Source: Candidatus Thermoflexus tengchongensis
Lineage (GTDB): Bacteria; Chloroflexota; Anaerolineae; Thermoflexales; Thermoflexaceae
Assembly: GCA_016842085.1 (NCBI GenBank)
Contig: JAEVEX010000042.1
Span: 1 to 64,000, forward strand
Direction: 5' to 3'
DNA length: 64,000 nucleotides
Shown: positions 3,001 through 31,335 of the stretch, piece after piece
How the letters are laid out: every line of letters begins with the position of its first letter
How positions within the stretch are numbered: position 1 is the stretch's first letter
Notes under the pieces: generated by a model
What the model saw: the letters and a program-made list of their open reading frames with translations, nothing else
Database searches by the model: none
Told to the model about the DNA's origin: nothing
Made by a program: the position numbers and the translations under genes

Positions 3001-5248
3001 AGCAATGGCGGAAGCTTATGGTTTCAATCCCACGCTGGTTCGATTGAGGCGGATGCGGATGATCACGCCGCCGCCGTCTTCCCGGACGTTTCAATCCCAC
3101 GCTGGTTCGATTGAGGCTTGCGTACAAGATCCATGCCCACAACCGCTGAAATCCGTTTCAATCCCACGCTGGTTCGATTGAGGCGCGCAGCTCCTTCAGA
3201 ACGCTTCGGTCGCCTTCGCCGGTTTCAATCCCACGCTGGTTCGATTGAGGCTGGGGACGGACGTGATCGCCCGGGATCCGGGGATACGTTTCAATCCCAC
3301 GCTGGTTCGATTGAGGCCCCCGACCGCGCCGCGGCGGAGGTTGCTATCCGCAGGTTTCAATCCCACGCTGGTTCGATTGAGGCTGCGCGGTCCCGCTGTC
3401 ACCATCACCGGTGACATGCGTTTCAATCCCACGCTGGTTCGATTGAGGCTCAATATCCCCACGTTGCGCACGGCCACGGATCTCTCGTTTCAATCCCACG
3501 CTGGTTCGATTGAGGCGGGCCATTGCGCGCCATGTCCGCTGATGGCGACTTTGTTTCAATCCCACGCTGGTTCGATTGAGGCCAGGATTTCGCCCCCCAC
3601 ACGGCCCCGCATGTCACGTTTCAATCCCACGCTGGTTCGATTGAGGCCTATCCCCAATAGCGCCCGCCGCCTCAATACCAAACAAGTTTCAATCCCACGC
3701 TGGTTCGATTGAGGCCCATTTTGACTTTCGCGGATCAAACACGAGTGTTTTCGTTTCAATCCCACGCTGGTTCGATTGAGGCCCACGGTATCTGTCTTCA
3801 TGAATACCACCCCATCCGGGGTTTCAATCCCACGCTGGTTCGATTGAGGCAGGTCACCCATCCGGAGGTCCTTTTGGAATACTATGTTTCAATCCCACGC
3901 TGGTTCGATTGAGGCGCTTCGAGAGTATCCGGCGCATTGGGGGCGTTTCGGTTTCAATCCCACGCTGGTTCGATTGAGGCCGCAATGAATCCGCCCTGCG
4001 CACACGCCTCATGCCTCGTTTCAATCCCACGCTGGTTCGATTGAGGCGCAGGATTTCGCCCCCCACACGGCCCCGCATGTCACGTTTCAATCCCACGCTG
4101 GTTCGATTGAGGCGCCCCCCAGGCCCGGGAGGACTTGAAAAACTTCGCCCTTTCAATCCCACGCTGGTTCGATTGAGGCCGTCTCTCAGATGGGTATGGC
4201 TTGTGGGGTCAGAGTTCTTTCAATCCCACGCTGGTTCGATTGAGGCCATTTTGACTTTCGCGGATCAAACACGAGTGTTTTCCTTTCAATCCCACGCTGG
4301 TTCGATTGAGGCCTATCCCCAATAGCGCCCGCCGCCTCAATACCAAACAACTTTCAATCCCACGCTGGTTCGATTGAGGCGAAGACATCACGAGTGAGCA
4401 TCTGCTCCACAGTCCGCTTTCAATCCCACGCTGGTTCGATTGAGGCCTACATTGGCGGCGCGTTCACGCTAATTGACGGCGTTCTTTCAATCCCACGCTG
4501 GTTCGATTGAGGCCAAGACGAACTCCTCCGCCGTCTCCCGCTCCTGGACGCTTTCAATCCCACGCTGGTTCGATTGAGGCTTTTCGAGGTGATCGGCGAG
4601 GAGGGGCTGGATCTCGCTTTCAATCCCACGCTGGTTCGATTGAGGCCCCAGCCCAATATGCGAAACCACCCCCAGATTCGAGAACTTTCAATCCCACGCT
4701 GGTTCGATTGAGGCGGATATTGAACTTGATGAACGCATTGCGATCCGTGAGCTTTCAATCCCACGCTGGTTCGATTGAGGCCCAATCCCCGTGCTCGAGC
4801 TTAGGTCGTCTCTCAGACTTTCAATCCCACGCTGGTTCGATTGAGGCGACTTGGAGTCGAAGGGCACCTCGCCCTCGTTCCCGACTTTCAATCCCACGCT
4901 GGTTCGATTGAGGCCACCGCCTTGAGCATGTCGGCAACCCCAAGCTGGCCCCTTTCAATCCCACGCTGGTTCGATTGAGGCTCCCTTCAACGCGTACTTT
5001 AAGAGATAGCCACGCACCCCTTTCAATCCCACGCTGGTTCGATTGAGGCGGGGTTGGGGTTGATATGATTGATCTCCTGGTAAGCTTTCAATCCCACGCT
5101 GGTTCGATTGAGGCCAAAAGTGGGGGACGAACATCGGACAGGTGTGGCGCGCTTTCAATCCCACGCTGGTTCGATTGAGGCTATCCAAATCCCAACCATC
5201 CCAGCCGCTTTCCTCCTCCTTTCAATCCCACGCTGGTTCGATTGAGGC
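1..5248 (-). CRISPR. Type III CRISPR array, 79 repeats, left end outside window
   Basis: A 30-bp repeat occurs 79 times from 31-60 to 5219-5248, separated by unique spacers of 35-38 bp; bases 1-30 are part of a further spacer, so the array continues to the left. On the plus strand the repeat starts GTTTCAATCC and ends GATTGAGGC. Its reverse complement ends ATTGAAAC, the usual 8-nt 5' handle of type I/III crRNAs, so the array is read on the minus strand and its leader lies to the right. Repeats 1-62 (31 to 4113) start with G on the plus strand. Repeats 63-79 (4150 to 5248) start with C, giving handle ATTGAAAG. No other repeat variation was noticed. Three spacers occur twice. Confidence 0.98.
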
Positions 5249-15436: not shown

Positions 15437-16123
15437 TCATGGGGCCTGGGCCCCCAGGCTTTCCAGCCGGCTCACCCATTCATGAAAGTGAGGGCATTTC
15501 CCCCGGATCGTGGAGAGACCAATTCTGCTGGCGATAAGTGGTCCATGCAAGGCCTTACGATATCCGGGGAAACAGCGGAAAATGCGCGCCGCTGGATGCG
15601 TATCGGGCCCTTCATCGATCTCCTCAGGCTCCAGCCCCGAGACCTCGTCGATTAGCCGCTGGAGATCCCTTTCGCGCGTTCGGGGGAAGAGCGCGGCAAG
15701 CTGATTCGCAAGCTGATCCGGTTGGGAGAAAAGCAGGGCCTCAAACTCGTGAAGGGTCAGGAATGGAAGAAAGCGGGGATGGCCGATATCCTGAGCGAAG
15801 GCCTTCTCCAGGAAAGCAACCCGCCGATATGGGTCGCCGGCCGGGAGTCTGTCCCTCCCCGGGAAGTCGGACGGTAAACCGTAATAGTCCATCATGGTGG
15901 TGACGAGGGCTGCGCTTGTATCCTGCAACAGGCGAAGCACTTCTCGCCGTACCTGCCCGTAGGTGATCACGCCGCCTTTGAAGACATCCCCGGAGCGGGT
16001 GCGCCTGGTCCGGGCCAGGATGGGAAAGAGGTAGACGCCCTTTGGGTTGAGGTGAGGGCTCAGGACATCGCGTATGAAAGTTTCCTCGGTTTGCCCTTCC
16101 ACATAGATCAGCACCTTCTTCAT
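15437..16123 (-). CDS. DUF4276-type protein, possible Toprim-like nuclease partner of the ATPase
   Basis: The 228-aa product starts MKKVLIYVEGQTEETFI, a beta strand ending in an acidic VEGxTEE motif as in DUF4276 and the related RloB/OLD-type Toprim-like proteins. Further conserved-looking acidic segments are MMDYYGLP and LHEFEALLFS. Its ATG overlaps the stop of the upstream ATPase gene in an ATGA junction, so the two are translationally coupled. In many genomes such ATPase-DUF4276 pairs are suspected defence modules. The nuclease activity is inference. It converges with the helicase gene. Confidence 0.7.
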   Translation of the reverse strand: MKKVLIYVEGQTEETFIRDVLSPHLNPKGVYLFPILARTRRTRSGDVFKGGVITYGQVRREVLRLLQDTSAALVTTMMDYYGLPSDFPGRDRLPAGDPYRRVAFLEKAFAQDIGHPRFLPFLTLHEFEALLFSQPDQLANQLAALFPRTRERDLQRLIDEVSGLEPEEIDEGPDTHPAARIFRCFPGYRKALHGPLIASRIGLSTIRGKCPHFHEWVSRLESLGAQAP

Positions 16124-17238
16124 CGGGATGGCCGGCCTCCGATCAGGTTCTTCTCCCAGAGATCGCCCAGGCCGTAGTCTTCCAGCCACATGCGGATCTC
16201 CTCGGAGGAGAGGCGACGGATGAGCGAAATCCCATCCGTCCGGTCCACAACCAGGATATCTTCGGGGGAGAACTGGTTCACCAGCGTCACGGACTGGGTT
16301 GCGAGGACGATCTGAGTGTGCGCCGCGGCCGCCCGGATCATCTCGGCCAGGAGAACGAGCGCATACGGATGGAGGCCCAATTCCGGCTCATCCAGGATAA
16401 CGGTCGCCGGCAGGCGATCGGGCGGCTGGAGGAAGAGCGTGGCCAGACAGATGAACCGGAGCGTCCCGTCCGACAGGGAATGAGGTCCGAACAGCATATC
16501 AGACCCCCGCTCCTGCCATTCCAGTCGGATTTTGCCCGGATTCAGAGGGGAGGGGCGGAGGATGAAATCGCCGAAAAAGGGAGCCGCCATCCGGATGGTT
16601 TCCACGATGTTACGGTAGGAGTCCGGCTCGGTCTCCCGCAATAAATAAAGATAGGCCGCCAGGTTAGAGGCGTCCGGGCGCAGGAAGAGATTATCGTGGA
16701 TATCGCCCATTTGCTTGACCTTCGCCGAATCGCTTGTGTCGTGAAAGTGATAAAGCTGCCACGACTTCATGGCCTTCAGGACATAAGAGGCGACCGGATC
16801 CCGCCCTGCCCACTCTGGAAGGAGGCTTTCGGGATGGATGGAGGAGGAAGCCGTTCCCACATAGGGACGTTCATAACGTGCCCGGTTATGAAAGTAACAG
16901 GCCTCTTCGATGAAGACCAGCGTATCCTCGGCCGTGGGGATCCACGTGGCCGTGTAACCGTTCGCCAGGTCTGTGTCTGTGCGGAACCAGAACTCAACGT
17001 GCATCCTCTCGGTGACCTTCCGCCCATAATGCAAAATCTGGTTCGCCCCGCCGGCCTGAGCGACATAGATCTGCAGCCCCTGGTTGACTGCTCGATTCAT
17101 CATCTGAAATAGCTGAATGAAGTTGGATTTGCCGGATCCATTGGCGCCGATGAGCACATTGATCCGTTCCAGAGATAGATCCAGCTCCCGGAAAGATTTA
17201 AATCCCTGAACCACGATCCGCTCCAGCTCAAACGCCAT
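16120..17238 (-). CDS. AAA family ATPase (RecF/OLD-like), first gene of a two-gene cassette
   Basis: The 372-aa protein has an ABC-type ATPase fold: VVQGFKSFRELDLSLERINV, Walker A GANGSGKSN (31-39), signature-like FGPHSLSDGTLRF, and Walker B VILDEPELGLHP near residues 279-290, followed by the switch region IVLATQSVTLVNQF. This is the AAA_21/OLD-like group, found in Old, RloA, AbiL and Gabija-type systems. It lacks a C-terminal Toprim domain of its own; the overlapping downstream DUF4276 gene may supply that part. It diverges from polA across a 207-bp gap. Confidence 0.82.
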   Translation of the reverse strand: MAFELERIVVQGFKSFRELDLSLERINVLIGANGSGKSNFIQLFQMMNRAVNQGLQIYVAQAGGANQILHYGRKVTERMHVEFWFRTDTDLANGYTATWIPTAEDTLVFIEEACYFHNRARYERPYVGTASSSIHPESLLPEWAGRDPVASYVLKAMKSWQLYHFHDTSDSAKVKQMGDIHDNLFLRPDASNLAAYLYLLRETEPDSYRNIVETIRMAAPFFGDFILRPSPLNPGKIRLEWQERGSDMLFGPHSLSDGTLRFICLATLFLQPPDRLPATVILDEPELGLHPYALVLLAEMIRAAAAHTQIVLATQSVTLVNQFSPEDILVVDRTDGISLIRRLSSEEIRMWLEDYGLGDLWEKNLIGGRPSR

Positions 17239-20347: not shown

Positions 20348-20377
20348 TTGCCCGGATCGGTTCCGCGCCGGTATAAT
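20348..20377 (+). promoter_or_regulatory. Promoter of the type III-C operon
   Basis: TTGCCC (20348-20353) and TATAAT (20372-20377) are separated by 18 bp, followed after 35 bases by the cmr1 ATG with AAGGAGG upstream. No other convincing promoter was seen before 31335, so it may drive the whole operon. Confidence 0.6.
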
Positions 20378-20412
20378 GGGGATAACCGGGCGTTACGGGA
20401 AGGAGGAAACGG

Positions 20413-21732
20413 ATGACCCCCATGGCCTCCGTGGAGATCCACCTGAAGACGCTCACCCCCCTCTGGACCGGCGGCGTGGACGGCACCATGGACCGCATCC
20501 ACGAAACGGGCATCCTCGGCTCCCTGCGCTGGTGGTATGAGGCCATCGTGCGAGGGCTGGGGGGAAGCGCGTGTGATCCGAGTGAGCATACGTGCCCTGA
20601 TAAAGACAGGCGTTATTGCGATGCATGCGCTGTTTTTGGCGCTACAGGGTTAAAGCGCTCCTTTCGCCTGGAAGGGCCGGTGGGGTGGAATGATAGGCCA
20701 CAGAACAGACTGACTGTGAAGGTCAACGATAACCGCGGCTGGTATTTGGGGCGAGGGTGGATGGGTGCGGAGAAAATCCGCGTTGTGCCCCTGCGCTTAT
20801 CCTTTGAGGACGTGCAGAACACCCTGCTGTTGACCCTACGCTTGATCGAGTGCTGGGGCGGCTTGGGGCCGAAAACCCAGGTGGGGTATGGGGTTGTGAA
20901 ATTTATTCTCCCAAACGGCGAATTGAATGTTGAGGGGGCCATTCAGGCATTTCAAAGGCTCATAAATCGGTGTAATCGAAGAACGCTTTCCACCCACAAT
21001 CAGTGGCCTGCACTGAATGGTTTCTTCTTCGCCAAGGTGCAATTCACGCTCAACACCAACACAACGCCGGAACAGTGGATCCGAGAACGAGTTACCAACA
21101 ACATTGAGTCGAATGAGGAATTATCCTGGTATCTCAACGAGGCTGGTGATGCTCAGCGAAAGGCCGTATTGCCGTTATCGCCGATTGTCCGTTATCATCT
21201 GCGAACCCTGATTCGGCAAAACATTCAGCATAACGGTCACCCTAACGCGCCGGCCCGGTGGCAATTGATGGGCGTGTTGAGTGGATACTGGCATAGAGAG
21301 GACTATGGCAAAGTAGAAAAAACCAATAGAAAGTGGCAATGTCAACACTGCGGTCGTACATGGTCAAATCCTCCCTCGCAGTGGGTTGAGAAAATCGAAC
21401 GCAGAGGCTCGCTGATCCAAGTCTCCCATGCTTATTTGGTCAACGACGGTCAGTGGGAATTCCGCATCTGGGGATGGATTCCGGGTGAGTTGTCTGGCTC
21501 AGTCTCACGCGACGATGTATTTCAGCATCTGCGCCAATGGCTGGGCGTTCAGCAACAACGCCAGTGGCACCAACCCCAAAACGGCGCGCTGTGGTCTGCC
21601 CTCAACCTGACGCCCACGCAAGTGTGCTGGTTTGAGCGGCGAGATAACGAAAGAGGGGAAGATTACCTGAGAGCACTCCTGGAAGGTTGCGAACAAACCT
21701 CACACGGAGGCACGGGGAACACAGAGAATTAA
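20413..21732 (+). CDS. cmr1: Type III CRISPR RAMP protein Cmr1
   Basis: This 439-aa Cas7-family subunit is expected to bind the 3' end of the target RNA in a Cmr-type complex. The N-terminus is a clear Cmr1 match: LKTLTPLWTGG, ETGILGSLRWWYEAIVRGLG, then a Cys-rich loop ending YCDACAVFGATG. The Gly-rich loop GGLGPKTQVGYG and a second CxxC (WQCQHCGRTW) follow. The last residues (SHGGTGNTEN) are encoded by a palindromic element overlapping the stop, so the native C-terminus was probably altered. The body after about 20590 is clearly lower in GC than its neighbours. It is first in the operon. Confidence 0.88.
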   Translation: MTPMASVEIHLKTLTPLWTGGVDGTMDRIHETGILGSLRWWYEAIVRGLGGSACDPSEHTCPDKDRRYCDACAVFGATGLKRSFRLEGPVGWNDRPQNRLTVKVNDNRGWYLGRGWMGAEKIRVVPLRLSFEDVQNTLLLTLRLIECWGGLGPKTQVGYGVVKFILPNGELNVEGAIQAFQRLINRCNRRTLSTHNQWPALNGFFFAKVQFTLNTNTTPEQWIRERVTNNIESNEELSWYLNEAGDAQRKAVLPLSPIVRYHLRTLIRQNIQHNGHPNAPARWQLMGVLSGYWHREDYGKVEKTNRKWQCQHCGRTWSNPPSQWVEKIERRGSLIQVSHAYLVNDGQWEFRIWGWIPGELSGSVSRDDVFQHLRQWLGVQQQRQWHQPQNGALWSALNLTPTQVCWFERRDNERGEDYLRALLEGCEQTSHGGTGNTEN

Positions 21733-21760
21733 TCTCTGTGCTCTCTGTGCCTCTGTGTGA
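21700..21760 (+). repeat. Palindromic element 1 (CACGGAG...CTCTGTG type)
   Basis: TCACACGGAGGCACGGGGAA on the left and TCTCTGTGCC TCTGTGTGA on the right form a long imperfect inverted repeat around 21730, with most mismatches being G-U in RNA. It covers the cmr1 stop codon. Related elements occur at 29899 and 30464 in the same operon. They resemble the widely dispersed CACGGAG/CTCTGTG intergenic palindromes of bacteria. Confidence 0.8.
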
Positions 21761-21777
21761 ATTTTAGGCAAAGCGCC

Positions 21778-22245
21778 ATGAACGAACAGAACCTGCACCG
21801 GCTCGTTGAACATCTACAACAAATCCTGGGTGACCGCCTGGACGCGGTGGTGCTTTTCGGGTCCCGCGCCCGGGGCGAAGGCCGCGCCGACAGCGACTGG
21901 GACCTCCTCATTGTGGTGCGGGATCTGCCTCGCAGTCCACTCAAACGGTGGCGGTGGTTCCGACAGAAAGTTGAACCGCCGCTTCTGGATGTAGACATCC
22001 CGCTCAAAACGCCGGAAGAATGGTACGAGCATCTATCCTCCCTTACTTTAGACATCGCGCTGGATGGTGTTATCCTTTATGACGCACCATGGCGTATGCA
22101 CCGGTTCCTCGAAAAGATCAAGCGAGCGCTCAAAGAGGCCGGCCTGCAAAGGGAACGCGTTCAAGAAGGCTATCTGTGGCGGGACGTGGCTACCTCCGCA
22201 AAAGAAACCTGGTATAAACGCGTGCAGGGAGTCCTCGCGGAATGA
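21778..22245 (+). CDS. Minimal nucleotidyltransferase (MntA-like antitoxin)
   Basis: The 155-aa product has the polymerase-beta-type nucleotidyltransferase signature LFGSRARGEGRADSDWDLLI, with GS and SDxD intact. It is followed by the HEPN gene in an ATGA overlap, the classic MNT-HEPN toxin-antitoxin order. In characterised MntA/HepT pairs the MNT protein adds AMP to the HEPN RNase and silences it. The start at 21778 follows AGG nine bases upstream; a GTG at 21757 is possible. It lies just after the palindromic element that ends cmr1. Its composition is GC-rich, like the host. Confidence 0.85.
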   Translation: MNEQNLHRLVEHLQQILGDRLDAVVLFGSRARGEGRADSDWDLLIVVRDLPRSPLKRWRWFRQKVEPPLLDVDIPLKTPEEWYEHLSSLTLDIALDGVILYDAPWRMHRFLEKIKRALKEAGLQRERVQEGYLWRDVATSAKETWYKRVQGVLAE

Positions 22246-22685
22246 AGTCGCCGGTGATGTGCCGGCTGCAGCTGGCGCGCGGCTTTCTGGATGAAGCCGA
22301 ACAGGATGCTTCGCTGGGGCGTTGGCGTGCGTGTGTGGCGCATGCGCAACTGGCTATACAAAATGCCCTGAAGGCCGTGATCGCGTTGTTCGCGCCTGTG
22401 CCACGCACCCACACACCGGGACGCATCCTGCGGGTTATGCTGGAAAATGGCGACATCCCCGAAGCCTGGAAGGAGGAAATCCGGAGCCTGCTTGAATTGG
22501 CCCAGGGCCTGGATGCCGCCCAGGTCCATATCCAAACCGACTATGGTGACGAATTCCACGGCCTCACCCCGTGGGAACTCTTTGATGAAGACGATGCCCG
22601 CGAAGCCCTGAGTATTGCCCGCAGGGTCGTCGCCCACACGAAGGCCCTTATTCAAACCGTAGGAGGCACCGATGGCACAGAATGA
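22242..22685 (+). CDS. HEPN-domain protein (putative RNase toxin)
   Basis: The 147-aa alpha-helical protein has the HEPN core GRWRACVAHAQLAIQNALKA (the RxxxxH arrangement RACVAH) and a second conserved segment, RTHTPGRILRVML. HEPN proteins paired with an MNT gene act as ribonuclease toxins; that role is inferred here. The start overlaps the NTase stop by four bases. The 3' end overlaps the next cas gene (cmr6) by 14 bases, so this toxin is tied into the translation of the CRISPR operon. Confidence 0.8.
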   Translation: MKSPVMCRLQLARGFLDEAEQDASLGRWRACVAHAQLAIQNALKAVIALFAPVPRTHTPGRILRVMLENGDIPEAWKEEIRSLLELAQGLDAAQVHIQTDYGDEFHGLTPWELFDEDDAREALSIARRVVAHTKALIQTVGGTDGTE

Positions 22686-23751
22686 ACAAGATAAGAAGTT
22701 GGAGTTTTGGGCAAAATTTGACTTATATGATTTCCTGGAAAGACATTCCCAAAACGAAAATGGTGATCTATTAGATGCATGGGTAGAAAAAAGGGGAAAA
22801 TTGTTAAACTACCCTTGGGGTCAGATTACAGATAAATCTGCTCGCCAAATGTTGCTCGCTGCTGTTTTACTGTCCGATGCTAAAGTACAGTTCCAAGATT
22901 CTAGGGGCAGATCCCATACATCCGGGGCTCGTGATTATGCCCGTACAGGGGCTTTGCAGTATCATCGCCCTGGGGGATTATTCTATTGGTACTACGGAGT
23001 ATCATTTCCCAATCCCAATGGTCCATTTCAGGAACATTTAAGTCGTCAAATATCGGAATTTCTTCGTCCACTTCACCTGATACCCGATTTGAACTTAGAC
23101 CTCTCCCTCTTCCCGCCCGGCTCGTGGGCCGTGCAGCTCACCTTCACCCTGCGCAAGCCCTACCTCAGCAGGGACGATGTGGACTTCTACATCCTGGACA
23201 ACCCGGTGAAGAAGGAGTGGGTCTTCAAAGTGCCCTACGTGGCCCCCAGCCAGTGGAAGGGCGCGTTGCGCGCGGCGATGCGCCGCTTGCGAGGGTATAC
23301 TACATGGGCAGAAGAGGCCCAAGATGCCCAGATGGTTCGGCTTTTTGGCAATGTGAAAGGGGAAGAAGAGGAATTTGCTGCCGGTCGCCTGCACTTCTAC
23401 CCCACCTTCTTTGATCGCATCGGACTGGAGGTCATCAACCCCCACGACCGGGAAACAGGGGCCGGCACACTTCCCATTTACTTTGAGTGCGTGCCCGCGG
23501 GAACGGAGGGCACATTGACCCTGCTCTATATGCCGCTGGACAATGGCCCGGCTGACGAGGCAACCTGCAAAGCCGACCTGAAAGCCGTGGCCCAGGGGAT
23601 CCGTGCCATGCTCACGGTCTATGGCTTCGGGGCCAAGACGAGCAGCGGGTACGGGGTGGCGGAAGTGGAGAGAGATGCGAGCCGGGTGCAGGCCAATGGA
23701 ATAGCGGATGCTGAGCGGATATTCTGGGAGGCATGGGATGGAACCGTTTAA
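22672..23751 (+). CDS. cmr6: RAMP protein, Cmr6-like
   Basis: This 359-aa Cas7-like subunit is called Cmr6 from operon position (cmr1-cmr6-cas10-cmr4-cmr5-cmr3 is the order I recall for subtype III-C) and from RAMP features: VAPSQWKGALRAAMRRLRG, AGRLHFYPTFFDRI, INPHDRETGAGTLPIYFE, and the C-terminal Gly-rich loop VYGFGAKTSSGYGVAEVE. The Cmr6/Cmr4/Cmr1 paralogues are hard to separate by eye. The start follows GGAGG. The first ~135 codons (22690-23090) are AT-rich; composition then switches abruptly to GC-rich. It overlaps HEPN by 14 bases and the next gene by 14. Confidence 0.65.
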   Translation: MAQNEQDKKLEFWAKFDLYDFLERHSQNENGDLLDAWVEKRGKLLNYPWGQITDKSARQMLLAAVLLSDAKVQFQDSRGRSHTSGARDYARTGALQYHRPGGLFYWYYGVSFPNPNGPFQEHLSRQISEFLRPLHLIPDLNLDLSLFPPGSWAVQLTFTLRKPYLSRDDVDFYILDNPVKKEWVFKVPYVAPSQWKGALRAAMRRLRGYTTWAEEAQDAQMVRLFGNVKGEEEEFAAGRLHFYPTFFDRIGLEVINPHDRETGAGTLPIYFECVPAGTEGTLTLLYMPLDNGPADEATCKADLKAVAQGIRAMLTVYGFGAKTSSGYGVAEVERDASRVQANGIADAERIFWEAWDGTV

Positions 23752-23974
23752 ACCACCCCGGCACATCGTCTGGAGCACGGATAGGATAGACCTGAACGAC
23801 CCCGTCCAGCGCCGCTGGTACATCCGGCAGGTGCTCCTCCACGGACGTGCGGAGGACATCCGCACCCTGGACCTGGCCGAGGTCGCTGCGCTCCTGGACG
23901 AGCTGAACCTGCCCGAACCCGTCTACCGGCTGTGGCGGGCGTTTTTGGAGGGGAAGGGGTATGTTAGAGGGTAA
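23738..23974 (+). CDS. Small protein, likely antitoxin partner of the AbiEii-like NTase
   Basis: The 78-aa product (starts MEPFKPPRHIVWSTDRIDLN) resembles small DUF6922-type proteins commonly encoded directly before AbiEii-type nucleotidyltransferases: a WSTDRIDL motif, RRWYIRQVLLHG and two acidic helices. No DNA-binding motif is obvious. It overlaps cmr6 by 14 bases and the NTase gene by 14 bases, so all three should be translated together. The antitoxin role is an inference from pairing. Confidence 0.6.
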   Translation: MEPFKPPRHIVWSTDRIDLNDPVQRRWYIRQVLLHGRAEDIRTLDLAEVAALLDELNLPEPVYRLWRAFLEGKGYVRG

Positions 23975-24635
23975 AGGTATTCTTACCCCAGGTCAGCGAG
24001 CCATTTTATCCCTGCTGGGCCGCGTGCCGGATATCCCCTATTTCTACCTCACCGGCGGAACGGCCCTGGCGGAATTTTACCTTGGCCACCGTCGCTCCTT
24101 TGACCTGGATTTGTTCACCACGCAGGAAGTTTTAATCCGGCCTTTCTCCTTCGAGATAGAGCATCGTTTCCGGGAGCAGGGCTGGTCGGTTCAGGTCATC
24201 CGGCGTTTTTCCACATTTGTGGAAATGGTTGTCACCTTGGAAGGCGAAGACGTGCGGATAGACCTTGGCCTGGATAGCCCTTTTCGCTTTGCCTCACCGG
24301 AGCCCTCGGTTTACGGCGTGCCCGTCAACGATTTAGAAGACCTGAAGGCGGAAAAGGCCCTGGCCTACTATGGGCGTGCCGAGATGCGAGATGCCGTAGA
24401 TCTCTATTTCCTGCTTCGCCGGTTCCCTCCTGAAACGCTGATGGAACTGGCGGCCCAGAAAGATACGGGCTTTGACCGATACTGGTTTGCCGTCGCTCTC
24501 CAGAAGGCGGAAACATTTCCGGATGAATTGTCCCGGTGGCCGGTAGAAATGCTTCAGCCCTTTGACCCCAAAGACTTGAAGGCCCGGTTTTTAACCCTGG
24601 CCCGGGACATCATGAACTCCCTGATCGGAGGATGA
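23961..24635 (+). CDS. AbiEii/AbiGii-family nucleotidyltransferase (putative toxin)
   Basis: The 224-aa protein has the family signature YLTGGTALAEFYLGHRRS followed by FDLDLF (GG-x-DxD), then EMVVTLEGEDVRIDLGLDS and DLEDLKAEKALAYYGRAEMRDAVDLYFLL, the substrate-binding half. Characterised AbiEii toxins act as GTP- or CTP-dependent nucleotidyltransferases in abortive infection. Here it overlaps its small partner by 14 bases, and its stop lies three bases before the csx11 start, inside that gene's ribosome-binding region, so the pair is embedded in the CRISPR operon. Confidence 0.85.
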   Translation: MLEGKGILTPGQRAILSLLGRVPDIPYFYLTGGTALAEFYLGHRRSFDLDLFTTQEVLIRPFSFEIEHRFREQGWSVQVIRRFSTFVEMVVTLEGEDVRIDLGLDSPFRFASPEPSVYGVPVNDLEDLKAEKALAYYGRAEMRDAVDLYFLLRRFPPETLMELAAQKDTGFDRYWFAVALQKAETFPDELSRWPVEMLQPFDPKDLKARFLTLARDIMNSLIGG

Positions 24636-24637
24636 CC

Positions 24638-27600
24638 ATGCTGGACCTGCAGGACCTGGTCACACACCGCCAAGATCTTCTCCTGGCCGAAGTGGCGGCG
24701 TGGTTGCATGATGTGGGGAAATTGAGCCGAGAGTTTATAGAGCAACTTTCATCTTGGCATCACGAGTTGGTGCTGAGAAGACGGATACGAGAGATAGAAA
24801 AAGAGATAGGGAAGAACTTTAACGAAATTAGCAAGGACGAACTGCGAAATTGGATAGAGAAAAGATTTCAAATTTCAATACCAGCTGATAAAAGAGGACG
24901 GCCTTTTCCCAATCCTAAAGACCAAAATTTCCCTACAAGTTTGGATACGTATCTAAAAAGAAAACCAAGGAGTGGTGAAGAATCTCTCATAGACCAAATA
25001 AGAGAGTTCTTTCGAATTGCTTACCTTGAAAGGGAAATCGCGGGCAATTTCTTTATGGAAGACTTTTACAACTTCTGTGAAGAGCATCAATTTCAGATAT
25101 TAAACTGGCAAGCCAAGATTTCCGAAGTTATAGAGGGGCATGGTGACCCTTTAGATTCCCCAAATGCCCTTGTGAAGCTGTTAAAACCGCCTTCCTGTGA
25201 TGCAATAGATTCAGCCTTAGATAAGGGAATGGCTGAAAAGCGGCAGGAACTTGGCAACGCATTTATTGCCTCTGCATTTGGTTATGAACGCAAAATTGCA
25301 CTTGATAAATTACAAGATTTTCGTCTCCGGTTACCAGCGTCTTTGTCTAAATTGCGGATGTTGCTTCCCTATATTTTAGCAAAGGCTTTAGGTGAAACTC
25401 GTCGTTCGGCTAATGATGTTACTTTATCGGATCATTCTTCGTCAGTAGCAGCACTTTTCAAAAGTTTGCTCGCTCGGATTTTACTAACAGAGTCTCAAAT
25501 ACCGGATATTTCAAGGTTTATGGATTCGCAAAATAGGTGGGCTGAACGTGCATGGCGCCTTCTCTCCATCCGCACCGACGGCCTGGAGTATCTCCTTTCC
25601 GCGCCTTCCATCCCCGACCTTCTGGCCCGCAAAGATCTGCTCACCGACGCCTGGAACCGGGTGCAGAAGGTGCTGGAGGAAGAATATCCCCTGGGGCTGG
25701 AAGTGTATCGGGATGAAAACGGCCCCGTGTTCGTGGTGCCGGACCTGGATAATCTGCTGGGTTTGTCCAACAGCGCTGATAACAATAAGACCCTGCGGGA
25801 ATACATCATAGAAGCCTTCCGCCAGGGCACTGTTAAAAGCGACCCATGCCTGGCCATAGATGGCGAAATCGTTCCCCGCTTCAAGGTGGATCAGCGTCCC
25901 TGGAAAGGACAACCCGCCCCACAGGAGCTCCCACCTATCGGTGAGCATCTACGAGAGAAGCCCGTCTGGCGATCTGATCCTGAAGCCATTGCTCAGTGGT
26001 GGTGTAACCTGCCCCGACCTGAAGAAATCTGCACGGTCTGTGGCCTGCGCCCCCAGGGGCCGGGGCAGAAGGCCAAAGACCGTAAGATGTGCGATATCTG
26101 CGAGGAACGCCGCGATGACCGGGCGAAAGCCTGGGCTAAGGGAGCCTCTCTATCACCACAAGACCGCTTCAAGCAAGGTAAACCGGATACCATCTGGCTG
26201 GACGAGGTGGCCGATAAAAATGGCCGCCTGGCTCTTATCGTGGGCACCTTTGATTTGACCCACTGGCTGAACGGCACCCTGGTTCGTTCCCTGGCCGTGC
26301 GAACGCCGAACAACCAGAACGGCCACACGGAAGAAAACGGCCACACGGAAGAAAAAGTGGCTAAAAATCCCTCTTTTGCCCGCCTGCGGCGCATCTGGGA
26401 AACCACCCGCCGCTTCTGGCAGGACGTCGCGCCTACCGATGCGCCACCGGAAGAACTCATAACCTTCTGCCAGAACCACAACCTGAACCTGCAAGACCTC
26501 TGGGAAGGCCCCCTAAGCCTTGAGGAATCTCTGGCCGGGCGGGCCATTGGGGAAAAACGTTCCCGTCTGTTCCTCAAAGGCACGTTGGTGAGCGGCGACC
26601 TTGGCCCCTTCCACGCCTACGAGATGATGGTTCAGGGCCGCAAGGTGGCCGTGCTTTGGGTGCCGCCGGGAGGGGAGGAGGTGAAAGACATTCCGGAGAA
26701 GTATCGCGGTGGCTTCTGGGTTATTGAAAACCTGGACTATCTCAAAACGCGCTTTGGCAGGGGTTTCCGAGAAGTTCTGGGCGAGGAGAAGACTTACGAA
26801 ATCTATGAGCCTTCGGAATACGGACGTCCAGGCAGGGCCGCCGCGCAATTTGTGGTGGAAGAGCAAAGGGAGGGCCCTCACTATGTGCCCCTCATCCCTA
26901 TTCTCGCCGAACCCCGCACCTTTATGGCCTTAGTGCCCGCGGACAAGGCTGTGGATGTGGTGCGGGCCATCAAGACCAAATACGAGCGGGAAATGGGCAA
27001 AGTCCGCAATCGCCTGCCCCTGCACCTGGGCATCGTCTTCGCCGACGCCCACCAGCCCCTGCGCACGGTTCTGGATGCGGGGCGGCGGATGATACAGCAA
27101 AAGGCTTCTCCGTCACAGTGGCAAGTCTATACAGTGAAAACTTTCGGTAATCTGAGCACCTCAGCTGCTCAGAAAGGCATGCGTGCCTTGCGTCTACTCA
27201 AGCGTAAAGATTTGCTGGAAGAACAACCCCAACAATTTGCGATAGTCCATTGCATAGTTCTGGAAAGCAAGACGGATGGCTTCTGCCGTAGAATTACTTG
27301 GTACGTCCCGGCCGTCATGGGCGACGGCCAAACGAAGGATAACTGGTATCCGTACGCCTTTCTTACTCAGGATGGCAAGCAGGACGGCAAGCCAACGGAC
27401 CGTAATCTTTACTATCAGGCGCCTAATCCCTTCAATCCGGATTCCAATGGCCATCCTCAACCCGGCTGGCTTGTCCACGCAGGCGAACTCCAGCGCGGCG
27501 ACGTCATCTACTTCACCCCCGCGACCCTGGACTTTATCTGGCTGGACCGCGGCGGCCGGCGCTTTGAGATCGCCTACGACGACCAGGGCCGACGTCATGG

Positions 27601-27964
27601 CACCCTGCGCTGGCCTTACTTGCTGGATGAACTGGATGACCTGGTGGAATGCTGGGAACTCCTGGCCGGGAAAGAGGATGGACAGGGCAAAATTCGCCGC
27701 CTGAGCAGCCGGCAACTCCACATCGTGCGTGACCTCATTGAGGGCAAACGCGCAGAATGGTTTGAGAACCCCCTTGACTCGGTGAATAGCGAAACTTTCC
27801 GCTGCTTCTGCGAATCCGTGTTGCGGAATGCCGAATGGCAGACCAAACCAGGGGAGACCGAATTGAAACGCCTCACCCACTGGGCCGTCACTGGCCTGCT
27901 GGCCGATGCCGTGGAACTTTTCTACCATATCCTGAAACAGCGGCCTGCAGGCGAGGAGGAATGA
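24638..27964 (+). CDS. csx11: Csx11, Cas10-family large subunit of a type III-C-like complex
   Basis: This 1108-aa protein is the large subunit. The N-terminal HD nuclease motif is AAWLHDVGKLS (H24-D25), expected to cut single-stranded DNA. A zinc finger of CxxC pairs lies at CTVCGLRPQ ... MCDICEERRDDR, near residues 465-490. A first palm-like strand reads GRLALIVGTFDLTHWLNGTL. In the second palm, at HLGIVFADAHQPLRTVLD, no GGDD is present, so cyclic oligoadenylate synthesis is unlikely. Divergent, cyclase-dead Cas10 is the hallmark of subtype III-C. Start 24638 has GGAGG six bases upstream; ATG 24632 is too close to it. Codons about 30-305 are AT-rich and the rest GC-rich. Confidence 0.75.
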   Translation: MLDLQDLVTHRQDLLLAEVAAWLHDVGKLSREFIEQLSSWHHELVLRRRIREIEKEIGKNFNEISKDELRNWIEKRFQISIPADKRGRPFPNPKDQNFPTSLDTYLKRKPRSGEESLIDQIREFFRIAYLEREIAGNFFMEDFYNFCEEHQFQILNWQAKISEVIEGHGDPLDSPNALVKLLKPPSCDAIDSALDKGMAEKRQELGNAFIASAFGYERKIALDKLQDFRLRLPASLSKLRMLLPYILAKALGETRRSANDVTLSDHSSSVAALFKSLLARILLTESQIPDISRFMDSQNRWAERAWRLLSIRTDGLEYLLSAPSIPDLLARKDLLTDAWNRVQKVLEEEYPLGLEVYRDENGPVFVVPDLDNLLGLSNSADNNKTLREYIIEAFRQGTVKSDPCLAIDGEIVPRFKVDQRPWKGQPAPQELPPIGEHLREKPVWRSDPEAIAQWWCNLPRPEEICTVCGLRPQGPGQKAKDRKMCDICEERRDDRAKAWAKGASLSPQDRFKQGKPDTIWLDEVADKNGRLALIVGTFDLTHWLNGTLVRSLAVRTPNNQNGHTEENGHTEEKVAKNPSFARLRRIWETTRRFWQDVAPTDAPPEELITFCQNHNLNLQDLWEGPLSLEESLAGRAIGEKRSRLFLKGTLVSGDLGPFHAYEMMVQGRKVAVLWVPPGGEEVKDIPEKYRGGFWVIENLDYLKTRFGRGFREVLGEEKTYEIYEPSEYGRPGRAAAQFVVEEQREGPHYVPLIPILAEPRTFMALVPADKAVDVVRAIKTKYEREMGKVRNRLPLHLGIVFADAHQPLRTVLDAGRRMIQQKASPSQWQVYTVKTFGNLSTSAAQKGMRALRLLKRKDLLEEQPQQFAIVHCIVLESKTDGFCRRITWYVPAVMGDGQTKDNWYPYAFLTQDGKQDGKPTDRNLYYQAPNPFNPDSNGHPQPGWLVHAGELQRGDVIYFTPATLDFIWLDRGGRRFEIAYDDQGRRHGTLRWPYLLDELDDLVECWELLAGKEDGQGKIRRLSSRQLHIVRDLIEGKRAEWFENPLDSVNSETFRCFCESVLRNAEWQTKPGETELKRLTHWAVTGLLADAVELFYHILKQRPAGEEE

Positions 27965-27967
27965 CGC

Positions 27968-28189
27968 ATGATCCGCGATCCGGAATTCTGGCGACGCTGG
28001 GAAGCGCAGTGGCAGCGCACCACCCCCGCCGATCCCGAGGCCAACCTGCGGATCTTCTGGACCCTGCTGGAGATGGCCCGGGCCGCCGGTGCGTGGCCTC
28101 CCACCGACCCCCTGGAAGGCCTGGAACACGACCTGGCACTGGCCCGGAGGATCAACGCCGATGTCCAACCTCCTGACCCGGCTCGCTGA
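27968..28189 (+). CDS. 73-aa protein paired with a nucleotidyltransferase
   Basis: This small hydrophilic protein begins MIRDPEFWRRWEAQWQ and has a second segment, TDPLEGLEHDLALARRIN. I do not recognise a named domain, but similar short WRRWE-type proteins are often encoded directly before AbiEii-like NTases in Chloroflexota, which is consistent with an antitoxin or adaptor role. It starts three bases after the csx11 stop and overlaps the NTase start by 29 bases. Confidence 0.6.
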   Translation: MIRDPEFWRRWEAQWQRTTPADPEANLRIFWTLLEMARAAGAWPPTDPLEGLEHDLALARRINADVQPPDPAR

Positions 28190-28724
28190 GGCCCTTGACC
28201 GGAAGGGCCTTCCGTATATGGTCATCGGGGGACAGGCTGTGTTGATGTATGGCGAGCCCCGGCTGACCCGGGATATCGACATCATCCTGGGGGTAACACC
28301 GGATGCCCTGCCCCGGGTCCTGGAAGTGGCTTCGGAAGTGGGGTTGCACATCCTGGTGGATGCTCCCGGGGATTTCGCCCGGCGCACCTGGGTGCTGCCG
28401 ACCCTGCATCCCGAAAGCGGGCTGCGGGTGGACTTCATCTTCTCGTGGACCCCTTATGAACGACAGGCGCTGGAACGGGCTCGCACGTTCCATATTGAAG
28501 GCTCTCCCGTCCGCTTTGCCGCGCCGGAGGATGTGATCATCCACAAGATCCTGGCCGGGCGACCCCGGGACCTGGAGGATGTGCGGAGCATTCTGCGCAA
28601 GCAGAAGGTCGATGCAGGCTATATCCGTTCCTGGCTGCACCAGTTCGAGTCGGTTTTGGGAAACCCACTGGTATCCGTATTTGACGAAATCCTGCAGGAG
28701 GAGGTGTCCGATGGCAAGCCATGA
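28161..28724 (+). CDS. AbiEii-like nucleotidyltransferase, third NTase in the operon
   Basis: The 187-aa product has GLPYMVIGGQAVLMYGEPR then LTRDIDIILG, the GG-x-DxD active site of AbiEii/DUF6036-type nucleotidyltransferases. A later conserved helix, PEDVIIHKILAGRPRDLEDV, supplies the Lys and acidic residues typical of the family. The start at 28161 has CGGAGG upstream and overlaps the 73-aa gene. Its 3' end overlaps cmr4 by 14 bases. Whether it is a toxin or an NTase antitoxin cannot be told from sequence. Confidence 0.8.
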   Translation: MSNLLTRLAEALDRKGLPYMVIGGQAVLMYGEPRLTRDIDIILGVTPDALPRVLEVASEVGLHILVDAPGDFARRTWVLPTLHPESGLRVDFIFSWTPYERQALERARTFHIEGSPVRFAAPEDVIIHKILAGRPRDLEDVRSILRKQKVDAGYIRSWLHQFESVLGNPLVSVFDEILQEEVSDGKP

Positions 28725-29940
28725 CCCCAAAACATACCGTTTCTTCCTGATGACCATAGACCCCGTGCATGTGGGCACGGGCGGCGCCCGCCTGGGCCGG
28801 GTGGATAACCCCATCGTCCGGGAACCGGGGACGAACCTGCCCAAGATCCCCGGCACCAGCCTGCACGGCGTGATTCGGGCCTATGCCGCGCACCGCTACG
28901 GCAAGCCCCGATGCGCAGGCCAGGGCCAGCCCGGCCAGGGCAAAGAAGGCCACTGCGCCCGGCCTACCTGCCCCATCTGCTACACCTTCGGCTACGCGCG
29001 GGACCAGAGTGGCGGTCACGCGGGGGTGGTCGCCATATCCGATGCCCGCATCCTCCTCTTCCCCGTCTACTCCATGGTCGGGCCGGTGTGGGTCAGTACG
29101 GTGAATATCCTGAAAACCGTTGGAATAGACGTCAAGCAAAATGGTCAACCCGTAACAGGGGATGGCCCGTTTGCTACGTTTTCACGAGAACAACCGCTGA
29201 ATTTGGGCTGGCTTATGATTGAAACGCCCACTGAGGCGAGCTTGGAAGGGATACCTCAACAATGGCAAAATGAATCCTGGTGGCAAACCCTTAGAAACCG
29301 AATTGTTCTGGTCTCGGACAAACTCTTTTCCCAGATTGTGAACAGCAACCTGGAAGTGCGCACCTCCGTGGCCATCAACCCCGAAACGGGCGCGGCCGAG
29401 GAAGGCGCCCTCTTCACCTATGAGGCCATCCCCCGCGCCACCATCCTCTGGATGGACGTGGTGGTGAGTGATTATCGGGGGGCGTTTCCGTCCAGCAACA
29501 AAGTTACGAGCTGGGAAAAACAAATTCCTGATGACCTGCGAATGGATTTGCCTGACGAATTCCCCTCTGATAAAAACCGCGAAATTGCACAAGTCTTGAC
29601 CGTCTTAAGAGAGGCCGGATTCAGGCTTCCAGATTCCATCCCCGGAGAAGAAAATAGGCGTAAGGCTTTTTGGCAAGCTTTTAGAGCTTCCCTTAGCGGA
29701 TTGCTCCAGGATGCCCAATGTTATACCCAAAGTAGCCTTTCGTGGAGCGAAGCCCTGCAGGTGCTTCAGTCAGGCCTTGAATGGGCCGAGCATCTGGGCG
29801 TGGGCGGGATGGGCACCCGCGGGTTCGGGCGCATTCGCGAACTTGCCTGGTGTAAGGTGAAAGATGATAGCCCCCTGGGGGACCCTTGCCAAAAGGATAC
29901 ACACGGAGACACGGAGAGCACGGAGCATACTGAGGGGTAA
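28711..29940 (+). CDS. cmr4: RAMP backbone protein Cmr4 (Cas7-type, target RNA cleavage)
   Basis: This 409-aa protein matches the Cmr4 N-terminus: TIDPVHVGTG, GRVDNPIVREPGT, KIPGTSLHGVIRAYAA. Asp32 in VDNPIVRE corresponds to the conserved Asp of Cmr4 that cleaves target RNA every six bases, so RNase activity is probably kept. A Cys-rich insertion, CARPTCPICYTFGYA, and the C-terminal Gly-rich GVGGMGTRGFGRI follow. It is longer than typical Cmr4 (about 300 aa). The last residues (THGDTESTEHTEG) come from a palindromic element. AT-rich patches at about 29100-29335 and 29480-29740 alternate with GC-rich parts. Confidence 0.8.
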   Translation: MASHDPKTYRFFLMTIDPVHVGTGGARLGRVDNPIVREPGTNLPKIPGTSLHGVIRAYAAHRYGKPRCAGQGQPGQGKEGHCARPTCPICYTFGYARDQSGGHAGVVAISDARILLFPVYSMVGPVWVSTVNILKTVGIDVKQNGQPVTGDGPFATFSREQPLNLGWLMIETPTEASLEGIPQQWQNESWWQTLRNRIVLVSDKLFSQIVNSNLEVRTSVAINPETGAAEEGALFTYEAIPRATILWMDVVVSDYRGAFPSSNKVTSWEKQIPDDLRMDLPDEFPSDKNREIAQVLTVLREAGFRLPDSIPGEENRRKAFWQAFRASLSGLLQDAQCYTQSSLSWSEALQVLQSGLEWAEHLGVGGMGTRGFGRIRELAWCKVKDDSPLGDPCQKDTHGDTESTEHTEG

Positions 29941-29970
29941 ATCCCTGTGTTCTCTGTGCCTCCTGTGTGA
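29899..29970 (+). repeat. Palindromic element 2 at the cmr4 3' end
   Basis: ACACACGGAGACACGGAGAG on the left and TTCTCTGTGCCTCCTGTGTG on the right form an imperfect inverted repeat around the cmr4 stop codon (29938-29940). It matches elements 1 and 3. It supplies the last 13 or so codons of cmr4 and lies just before the cmr5 ribosome-binding site. Confidence 0.8.
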
Positions 29971-29989
29971 AACTAATCGGAGGTGAACC

Positions 29990-30460
29990 ATGAGCACGGT
30001 GAAAACCCTGGACTATCTCGCAGCCAAAACCGCGCGGGAGATGGTGGAAATGGCTACAAAACCATCAAATGAGGGAGGGCTCGGTACTGCGGCAAAAGAT
30101 TTGGAAAACCTCATCACCAAAGCCCTGGGCGTTCTTCAATCTCAGGGCGTATATGCTTTGTTCCTCTATCTCTATAGCCAAAGCGGCACAGATAAACCCA
30201 TCAAAAAGGGGGCCGCACTTATAGTGGAAAAATTATGGAACGCATTAGGAGAAGAACCTGCAAGCCATTTGCGCATTTTGAACAACGGACACAAACTCCA
30301 GGGTTGGAACAAGGCCTTGCAGCAAAAAAATCGTGTCCTCGCGGACGTGACCGAGCACATCACCGCCAACCTGGACACCCTCCTCCTCGTCCGGGATCTG
30401 TACGAACAGACCCTCATCTACGCCCGTTACCACGCCAAGGCCCTGCAGGAGAAGGAGTAA
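29990..30460 (+). CDS. cmr5: Small subunit Cmr5 (Cas11)
   Basis: This 156-aa all-helical protein begins STVKTLDYLAAKTAREMVE and continues with the helix AALIVEKLWNALGEE and a long C-terminal helix ending in lysine and glutamate residues. Size, helical character and position between cmr4 and the Cas5-type gene fit Cmr5, which forms the inner filament of the complex. ATCGGAGGTGAACC gives a strong ribosome-binding site. The middle part (about 30055-30330) is AT-rich relative to the rest. Confidence 0.75.
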   Translation: MSTVKTLDYLAAKTAREMVEMATKPSNEGGLGTAAKDLENLITKALGVLQSQGVYALFLYLYSQSGTDKPIKKGAALIVEKLWNALGEEPASHLRILNNGHKLQGWNKALQQKNRVLADVTEHITANLDTLLLVRDLYEQTLIYARYHAKALQEKE

Positions 30461-30463
30461 TCG

Positions 30464-30522
30464 CCCACGGAGACACGGAGAACACCGAGATGGGGCTCCG
30501 TGCTCTCTGTGGCTCCGTGTGA
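30464..30522 (+). repeat. Palindromic element 3 between cmr5 and cmr3
   Basis: CCCACGGAGACACGGAGAAC on the left and CCGTGCTCTCTGTGGCTCCG on the right form an imperfect inverted repeat centred near 30493, starting three bases after the cmr5 stop. It is the third member of the CACGGAG/CTCTGTG family in this operon. Confidence 0.8.
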
Positions 30523-30543
30523 GAATCAGATGGGGAGGCACAT

Positions 30544-31335
30544 ATGGCCTGGACCCTCTATCGCCTGGTCTTCCGCCTGGAAAGCCCGCTGCACATCGGC
30601 TGGCGCAAGGTGGGGAATCTGATGCAGACCCGCCCATATGTCCCGGGGAAGGTGCTCTGGGCCGCCCTCACCGCCGGCATCACCAGAGACCTGGGTCACG
30701 GAGCCGACGGGCAGAAATACAAGGGAATCGGCCAGGCGGTGCAGGAAAATTTCCGCTTCGGCTACCTCTGGCCCTCGGTGGACGGGCAAACGCCGTATTT
30801 CCCCTGGGAGCACGACGATTTTGATTACCGCCTGCTGGGCAGTTACGCCGGCACTGCCCAGGACCCCGATCGCGAGGCGGCGGAGGAGGGAAGCCTCCAC
30901 GAAACGGAATTTATCGCCCCCATTACCCGCGATGGCCGGCCGGTTTATCTCATAGGGGACCTGTGGGTGCGGAATGGACTCCCCCATGAACTCCAGAACT
31001 GGCAGAAAGCGCTGGGAAAGGTCCAGCTGGGCGGCGAGCGGACTTACGGTTGGGGCCGGGTGCGGCTGGAGCGGCTGGAGCAGCTGGGGCAGCTGAAGGA
31101 GGTGGTGATCAGGCTGGAGAAAAATTCCCCTCTCACCGCCCACGCGTGGGCTGCAGGGGAGGGGGCCGTCCTGAATGTGATCGGCCCGGTGGAGCCGCTG
31201 GTGGGCTGGGAAATGAATGAGGAGGGCCGTTTCGTCCTCAGCCAGGCGGTGATCAGCTGGGCTCCTGGATCTCGTGTCCAGGATGGCTTGGAACTGGTTG
31301 TCGGAGACTATGGGATTCTGAAAAAAGGCCCATAA
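30544..31335 (+). CDS. cmr3: Cas5-type RAMP protein, Cmr3-like
   Basis: The 263-aa last gene of the operon has RAMP features: LYRLVFRLESPLHIGWRK, the helix VPGKVLWAALTAGITRDLG, and the Gly-rich loop VQLGGERTYGWGRVRLERL. It is assigned to the Cas5 (Cmr3) group, which would bind the 5' handle ATTGAAAC/G of the crRNA, from its terminal position after cmr5. It is shorter than typical Cmr3 (about 300-350 aa), so an alternative is another single-RRM RAMP. Composition is uniformly GC-rich. Confidence 0.6.
   Translation: MAWTLYRLVFRLESPLHIGWRKVGNLMQTRPYVPGKVLWAALTAGITRDLGHGADGQKYKGIGQAVQENFRFGYLWPSVDGQTPYFPWEHDDFDYRLLGSYAGTAQDPDREAAEEGSLHETEFIAPITRDGRPVYLIGDLWVRNGLPHELQNWQKALGKVQLGGERTYGWGRVRLERLEQLGQLKEVVIRLEKNSPLTAHAWAAGEGAVLNVIGPVEPLVGWEMNEEGRFVLSQAVISWAPGSRVQDGLELVVGDYGILKKGP

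Follow-up and report, generated by a model that had tools for sequence, protein, structure and literature searches.

How do three two-gene modules of toxin-antitoxin (TA) or abortive-infection (Abi) type come to lie between the subunit genes of a type III-C CRISPR-Cas operon, and what, if anything, does the operon gain from them? The question is raised by a 64,000-nucleotide (nt) stretch of Candidatus Thermoflexus tengchongensis DNA (contig JAEVEX010000042.1, positions 1 to 64,000), referred to below as the window, in which an operon on the + strand (20413-31335) holds six cas genes plus three two-gene modules between its subunits. Comparable modules recur in other III-C loci, and from their sequences they appear to be exchangeable TA/Abi-like pairs that are selected or tolerated in III-C operons.

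Three modules between the subunits of a III-C operon

The III-C identity of the operon was supported by a Csx11 score of 417 bits against TIGR02682 (cut-off, 249) and by matches for all of the Cmr1, Cmr3, Cmr4, Cmr5 and Cmr6 subunits. The gene order, strand and coordinates given in the initial annotation were correct, and profile searches confirmed each family:

20413-21732, +, cmr1 (TIGR01894, 3.6e-15)
21757-22245, +, MNT, an MntA-like minimal nucleotidyltransferase, candidate antitoxin (PF01909, 7e-8; PDB 7ae2, MNT antitoxin, 0.002)
22242-22685, +, HEPN, TT1696-like, candidate toxin or substrate-binding partner (PF05168, 1.2e-15; model with a predicted local distance difference test score (pLDDT) of 82, top fold 1ufb)
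22672-23751, +, cmr6 (PADLOC Cmr6, 2.9e-80)
23738-23974, +, small AbiEii partner of 78 amino acids (aa), candidate antitoxin (found before AbiEii in the examined close relatives)
23961-24635, +, AbiEii-family nucleotidyltransferase (NTase), candidate toxin (PF08843, 1.4e-15)
24632-27964, +, csx11, Cas10-like III-C large subunit (TIGR02682, 1.4e-124; Cas10c, 4e-193; motif alignment)
27968-28189, +, 73-aa partner of the third NTase (small73), candidate antitoxin similar in size to MenA1 (next to the NTase where free-standing; without it in L111, L112 and L107)
28161-28724, +, third NTase, DUF6036/DUF2204, MenT1-like, candidate toxin (PF19502, 1e-9; PDB 8an4/8an5, MenT1, 1.6e-7)
28711-29940, +, cmr4 (TIGR02580, 1.6e-35)
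29990-30460, +, cmr5 (PADLOC Cmr5, 5e-37)
30544-31335, +, cmr3 (PADLOC Cmr3, 6e-79)

Consecutive genes are separated by 83 nt at most. As had been claimed, the three TA-like pairs share the strand of the III-C subunits between which they are nested and are joined to them by short overlaps, which amount to 14 nt for HEPN and cmr6 (22672-22685), for the 78-aa gene and AbiEii, for the third NTase and cmr4 (28711-28724), and for cmr6 and the 78-aa gene if the latter starts at the ATG at 23738, a start supported by its homologue in locus L111 (a longer version of this open reading frame (ORF) begins at 23708). An alternative start of MNT is the ATG at 21778. For AbiEii and csx11, where a spacing of 3 bases had been claimed, AbiEii either overlaps csx11 by 4 nt at its first ATG (24632) or ends 2 nt before the second. 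The description of the modules as GC-rich like the host held in part, their GC fraction (0.55-0.69) mostly following that of the cas genes (0.52-0.63) and lying below that of the flanking host helicase and DNA polymerase genes (0.67-0.69). In the class sample, six of the eight other genomes of the genus were without csx11 and two had a divergent copy, and the window operon was therefore probably acquired together with its modules.

Csx11 of the window has the HD motif and carries EPRT in place of GGDD. In a motif alignment, every Csx11 sequence whose palm region could be read lacked GGDD, and the HD motif was kept in some homologues and lost (LHM or LHN) in others; a link between HD loss and possession of modules was rejected, no pattern being visible by eye. 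A predicted cyclase-dead Csx11 in all readable homologues fits the published picture of III-C loci, in which the absence of cyclase sites matches the lack of known effectors (PMC11229360) and which have been listed as inactivated (PMC12669027). With described type III-C systems the window shares all six core genes, the GGDD-less Csx11 and an array in the same window, whereas the three NTase pairs set between its subunit genes are an addition; no description of III-C with nested TA modules was found in the open-access papers searched. At least three further Cas10-like genes lie on contigs C47, C80 and C71 of the window genome (L229, L230 and L231) and could act as a signal source in trans.

Recurrence of nested modules in other III-C loci

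Csx11 was present in 22 of 400 sampled genomes of the phylum and in 38 of 396 of the class. The DNA surrounding csx11 was annotated with profiles built from the window genes, and in all about 60 III-C loci were surveyed, many of them cut by contig ends. Nested two-gene toxin- or Abi-like modules, or remnants of these, were present in 20 of the approximately 60 loci, as counted by hand from the maps, and no other kinds of genes were found between cas genes in this survey. The recurrence of pairs at the same junctions, which the initial annotation had proposed as a check, was thus borne out for a few junctions. The space between cmr1 and cmr6 was occupied in 12 of 46 loci (10 ATPase-Toprim and 2 MNT-HEPN pairs), that between cmr6 and csx11 in 7 of 48 (5 MNT/HEPN, 2 small-AbiEii) and that between csx11 and cmr4 in 5 of 52 (small73 with or without the NTase), as compared to 1 of 49 between cmr5 and cmr3 (HEPN-MNT) and 0 of 48 between cmr4 and cmr5. 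Insert-free compact III-C loci in Aminicenantes (L040) and on cyanobacterial plasmids indicate that the six-gene plan is probably ancestral.

A lack of all such pairs in related III-C loci, which the initial annotation named as counting against it, was contradicted by these 20 loci and by L111, a locus in another family of the class. L111 carries almost the full set of the window at matching positions, its order (cmr1-MNT-HEPN-cmr6-small-AbiEii-csx11-small73-cmr4-cmr5-cmr3) being that of the window except for the loss of the third NTase. Identity between the two loci was 54.5% for MNT, 59.3% for HEPN, 70.1% for the small AbiEii partner, 66.5% for AbiEii and 65.7% for small73, compared with 45-59% for the Cas proteins, so that the modules equal the cas genes in how strictly they were retained; judged by this comparison, they are old and have diverged to the same degree as the cas genes. 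The cas tree gives the window the module-free L040 as its sister and pairs L111 with L041, whereas the HEPN tree joins the window and L111 as sisters. This disagreement therefore points to module loss, exchange, or both.

For comparison, 40 non-III-C type III loci from the same class were annotated with the same profiles, and MNT, ATPase-Toprim, AbiEii or the third NTase were found between cas genes in none of them. A Pfam scan of 63 unassigned ORFs of the control operons returned mostly Cmr3, Cmr5, Csm2 and RAMP proteins, together with two NACHT proteins and, next to a cmr1 fragment at the edge of an operon, one HEPN. Fisher's test gave p values of 1e-5 for 20/60 versus 0/40 and of 1e-3 for 20/60 versus 2/40, both ignoring kinship among loci. 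In two other type III operons we observed NACHT/STAND NTPase genes nested between cas genes (L234, 7156-9072; L235, 7303-9381).

With 19 PF01909 matches in the 3.89 Mb of the window genome, the probability of at least three NTase modules falling within 11 kb is about 1.5e-4 at a generous 35 per genome, before strand and junction position are required. Chance insertion was rejected on the recurrence at the same junctions, on L111 and on the improbability of three modules in 11 kb; the earlier suspicion of more than chance is thus upheld by recurrence in other genomes.

The pair found between cmr1 and cmr6 in ten III-C operons consists of an AriA-like ATPase (AAA_21) and a Toprim-like protein with invariant E..TE and DxD residues:

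L042 (6627-8718), L047, L048, L049, L052, L063, L100, L109, L113 and L114: ATPase-Toprim pair at the cmr1-cmr6 junction

The Toprim-like profile matched in two of 191 genomes, a sample with few III-C genomes, both times inside a III-C operon, and the protein was not found in the plasmid search. From these sequence searches, this protein ranks first among the candidates for an accessory dedicated to III-C. Like PARIS (AriA ATPase plus AriB Toprim), the pair comprises an AAA_21 ATPase followed by a protein with Toprim-type E...DxD residues, and its ATPase has AriA as best PADLOC match (~1e-19); unlike PARIS, its second protein has no AriB profile match and the pair is located at the cmr1-cmr6 junction.

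Candidate toxins and what they may do for the operon

The claim that the catalytic motifs are intact was accurate for the NTases and not for HEPN. Intact motifs are GSx10DxD in MNT (GSRARG...SDWDL, GSRARGEGRADSDWD), GGTAL...SFDLDLF in AbiEii and GGQAV...RDIDI in the third NTase. HEPN has RACVAH (RACVAHAQ) and not the RX4HXY motif, and the histidine is replaced by asparagine in most close relatives; the nearest folds to its predicted structure are TT1696 and archaeal HEPN proteins, members of the COG2250 group. The MNT-HEPN pair thus has the two-gene composition and intact MNT motif of the type VII HepT/MntA systems, from which it differs in its PF05168/TT1696-like HEPN without a conserved RX4HXY. 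The nested HEPNs represent at least three subfamilies, with six changes of state on the HEPN tree, and were therefore recruited repeatedly. Several loci hold, between cmr6 and csx11, parts of a four-gene MNT-HEPN-MNT-HEPN block at various stages of decay, and this block also occurs outside a recognised III-C locus (L178). At L184 (8947-10363), a III-C remnant consists of MNT, MNT2, HEPN2 and a 78-aa N-terminal fragment of csx11.

PF08843 matches both AbiEii and the third NTase, the latter aligning with MenT1 (8an4), a tRNA-modifying toxin blocked by the 68-aa MenA1 (PMC10435456). Most of the close relatives in which the 78-aa gene precedes AbiEii are not part of CRISPR loci, and free-standing copies of the third NTase have the 73-aa gene in front of them. 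No similarity of either small partner to a known antitoxin was detected, though the small upstream gene is conserved. As in MenAT1 and AbiE, both window NTases have intact motifs and a small gene before them; in contrast to these systems, the small partners matched no known antitoxin and AbiEii has no AbiEi-type partner. An AlphaFold model of AbiEii, run without an alignment, reached a pLDDT of 46 and was set aside.

Free-standing copies exist for each of the three window families, those of AbiEii and the third NTase with the same small partner first, and the families are therefore exchangeable modules. In five III-C loci the partner was kept and the toxin lost (small73 in L111, L112 and L107, the last a degraded copy; MNT2 in L049 and L050), compared with no III-C locus holding an intact toxin without an antitoxin-like partner (L094 being cut by a contig end). 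This is, in small numbers, the direction expected of TA pairs.

We considered four explanations, ranked from a guard or back-up shutdown function through selfish passengers and direct effectors to Cas accessories. The first, to which we lean while giving it somewhat less than an even chance, is that exchangeable TA/Abi modules form a guard or back-up translation-shutdown cassette within the III-C operon, and the findings suggest a built-in addiction or self-shutdown arm. The first gene of each pair (MNT, the 78-aa protein, the 73-aa protein) would neutralise the second (HEPN, AbiEii, the MenT1-like NTase), and the second genes would cut or modify RNA, tRNA being the most likely target, and thereby block translation. 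With antitoxins and Cas subunits presumably encoded on a common transcript, the toxins would be freed once the operon is lost or shut off, as by deletion or phage takeover; their release would make the operon hard to lose and would provide III-C with a shutdown of the cell for which cyclic oligoadenylate is not available to it.

Several points weigh against such a function. About two-thirds of III-C loci are without a module, including L040, the nearest cas relative of the window, and the effector complex therefore needs none. An RNase toxicity of HEPN is doubtful, since RX4HXY is not conserved and the best fold match of the model is of TT1696 type. In the AbiEii tree, the two nested copies do not form a clear group separate from the free ones, and free-standing modules can persist selfishly.

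This last point leads to a second explanation, which we consider possible but less probable, namely that mobile TA modules, common in thermophiles and hard to lose, land in many operons, and that III-C is tolerant and gains nothing. The free-standing occurrence of all three window families, the absence of modules from most III-C loci and the module pieces in decay in L049, L140 and L184 are in line with it, as is the mobility of MNT-HEPN, a pair of which is inserted in the lysine-biosynthesis operon of Thermus HB8 and not in that of HB27 (PMC2701414). However, modules of this kind were nested in none of the 40 other type III loci sampled from the class, nearly all inserts lie in the cmr1-csx11-cmr4 part, overlaps with subunits and open reading frames are maintained, and the searches met no ATPase-Toprim pair outside III-C loci.

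A wider proposal, in our estimate unlikely, is that III-C, unable to make cyclic oligoadenylate, uses interchangeable translation-shutdown modules (MNT-HEPN, AbiEii, MenT1-like NTase, ATPase-Toprim) between its subunit genes as a signal-free effector arm, which would be released or activated on complex engagement or on expression failure. The recurrent two-gene modules, mostly of translation-targeting families, and the ATPase-Toprim pair restricted to III-C in the genomes sampled provide concrete candidates for a replacement of cyclic-oligoadenylate signalling.

Still less probable is direct release or activation of a neighbouring NTase, HEPN or Toprim protein by the Csx11 complex on target RNA in place of that signalling. 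The loss of the cyclase motif in a subtype without known effectors (PMC11229360), the co-encoding of modules with subunits and the lack of free ATPase-Toprim copies in the 191 genomes would suit such working effectors, yet the same slot holds different, unrelated modules, most III-C loci are module-free, no receptor domain common to the modules was seen, and ordinary TA pairs would be expected to have such small partner genes and free-standing copies. Very improbable is the view that the small proteins and NTases serve the Cas complex as structural or regulatory accessories, such as complex-assembly helpers, and are not toxins: orphan small73 and MNT2 are retained in operons without their partners and the window HEPN family resembles substrate-binding HEPN proteins, but these families are also found away from CRISPR loci, and in Anabaena and Sphaerospermopsis the compact plasmid loci consist of the six cas genes only.

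Junction hairpins, array and neighbouring defence genes

Three predicted hairpins lie at junctions of the window operon:

21703-21757, +, long near-perfect CACGGAG-type palindrome at the cmr1-MNT junction (-42 kcal/mol, z -10.8)
29900-29969, +, hairpin at the cmr4-cmr5 junction (-38.8 kcal/mol, z -5.6)
30466-30519, +, hairpin at the cmr5-cmr3 junction (-32.7 kcal/mol, z -4.3)

The core pattern occurs five times in the whole genome, three of them in this operon. Similar elements lie at or near cas junctions in L111 (15370) and L112 (11448, 11737 and 12951), in the latter where the third NTase is missing; elsewhere the pattern was found once in 540 kb around III-C operons and not in 630 kb of control loci. 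The hairpins may be cassette-exchange points or transcript-processing sites. Terminator-like sites did not exceed the shuffled expectation. A Thermus plasmid III-C locus has insertion sequence (IS) elements between its annotated cas genes.

Two further features of the window accompany the operon:

20348-20377, +, promoter-like site TTGCCC-18-TATAAT, 35 nt before cmr1 (consensus match only)
31-5248, +, CRISPR array (62 exact copies of the repeat GTTTCAATCCCACGCTGGTTCGATTGAGGC, with one-base variants in addition)

CreTA, a type VIII TA system nested in CRISPR loci, likewise places a TA module within a CRISPR-Cas locus, which the module could guard, but pairs a toxic RNA with a CRISPR-like guide RNA that derives from ectopic repeats, whereas the window pairs encode proteins and no ectopic repeat was found. 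A CreTA-like RNA antitoxin was rejected, the best non-array repeat match being 18/30 against a null mean of 18.4. The modules might alternatively represent a protein-based counterpart of CreTA, with TA pairs guarding a CRISPR system.

An AAA_21 ATPase and DUF4276 pair matching PADLOC HEC-01A/B lies 3.2 kb upstream of cmr1 (15437-17238, - strand). A close homologue of this HEC-01-like pair directly follows cmr3 in L048, and in the same genome (G238) two different III-C operons (L048 and L055) stand in tandem with a HEC-01-like pair between them.

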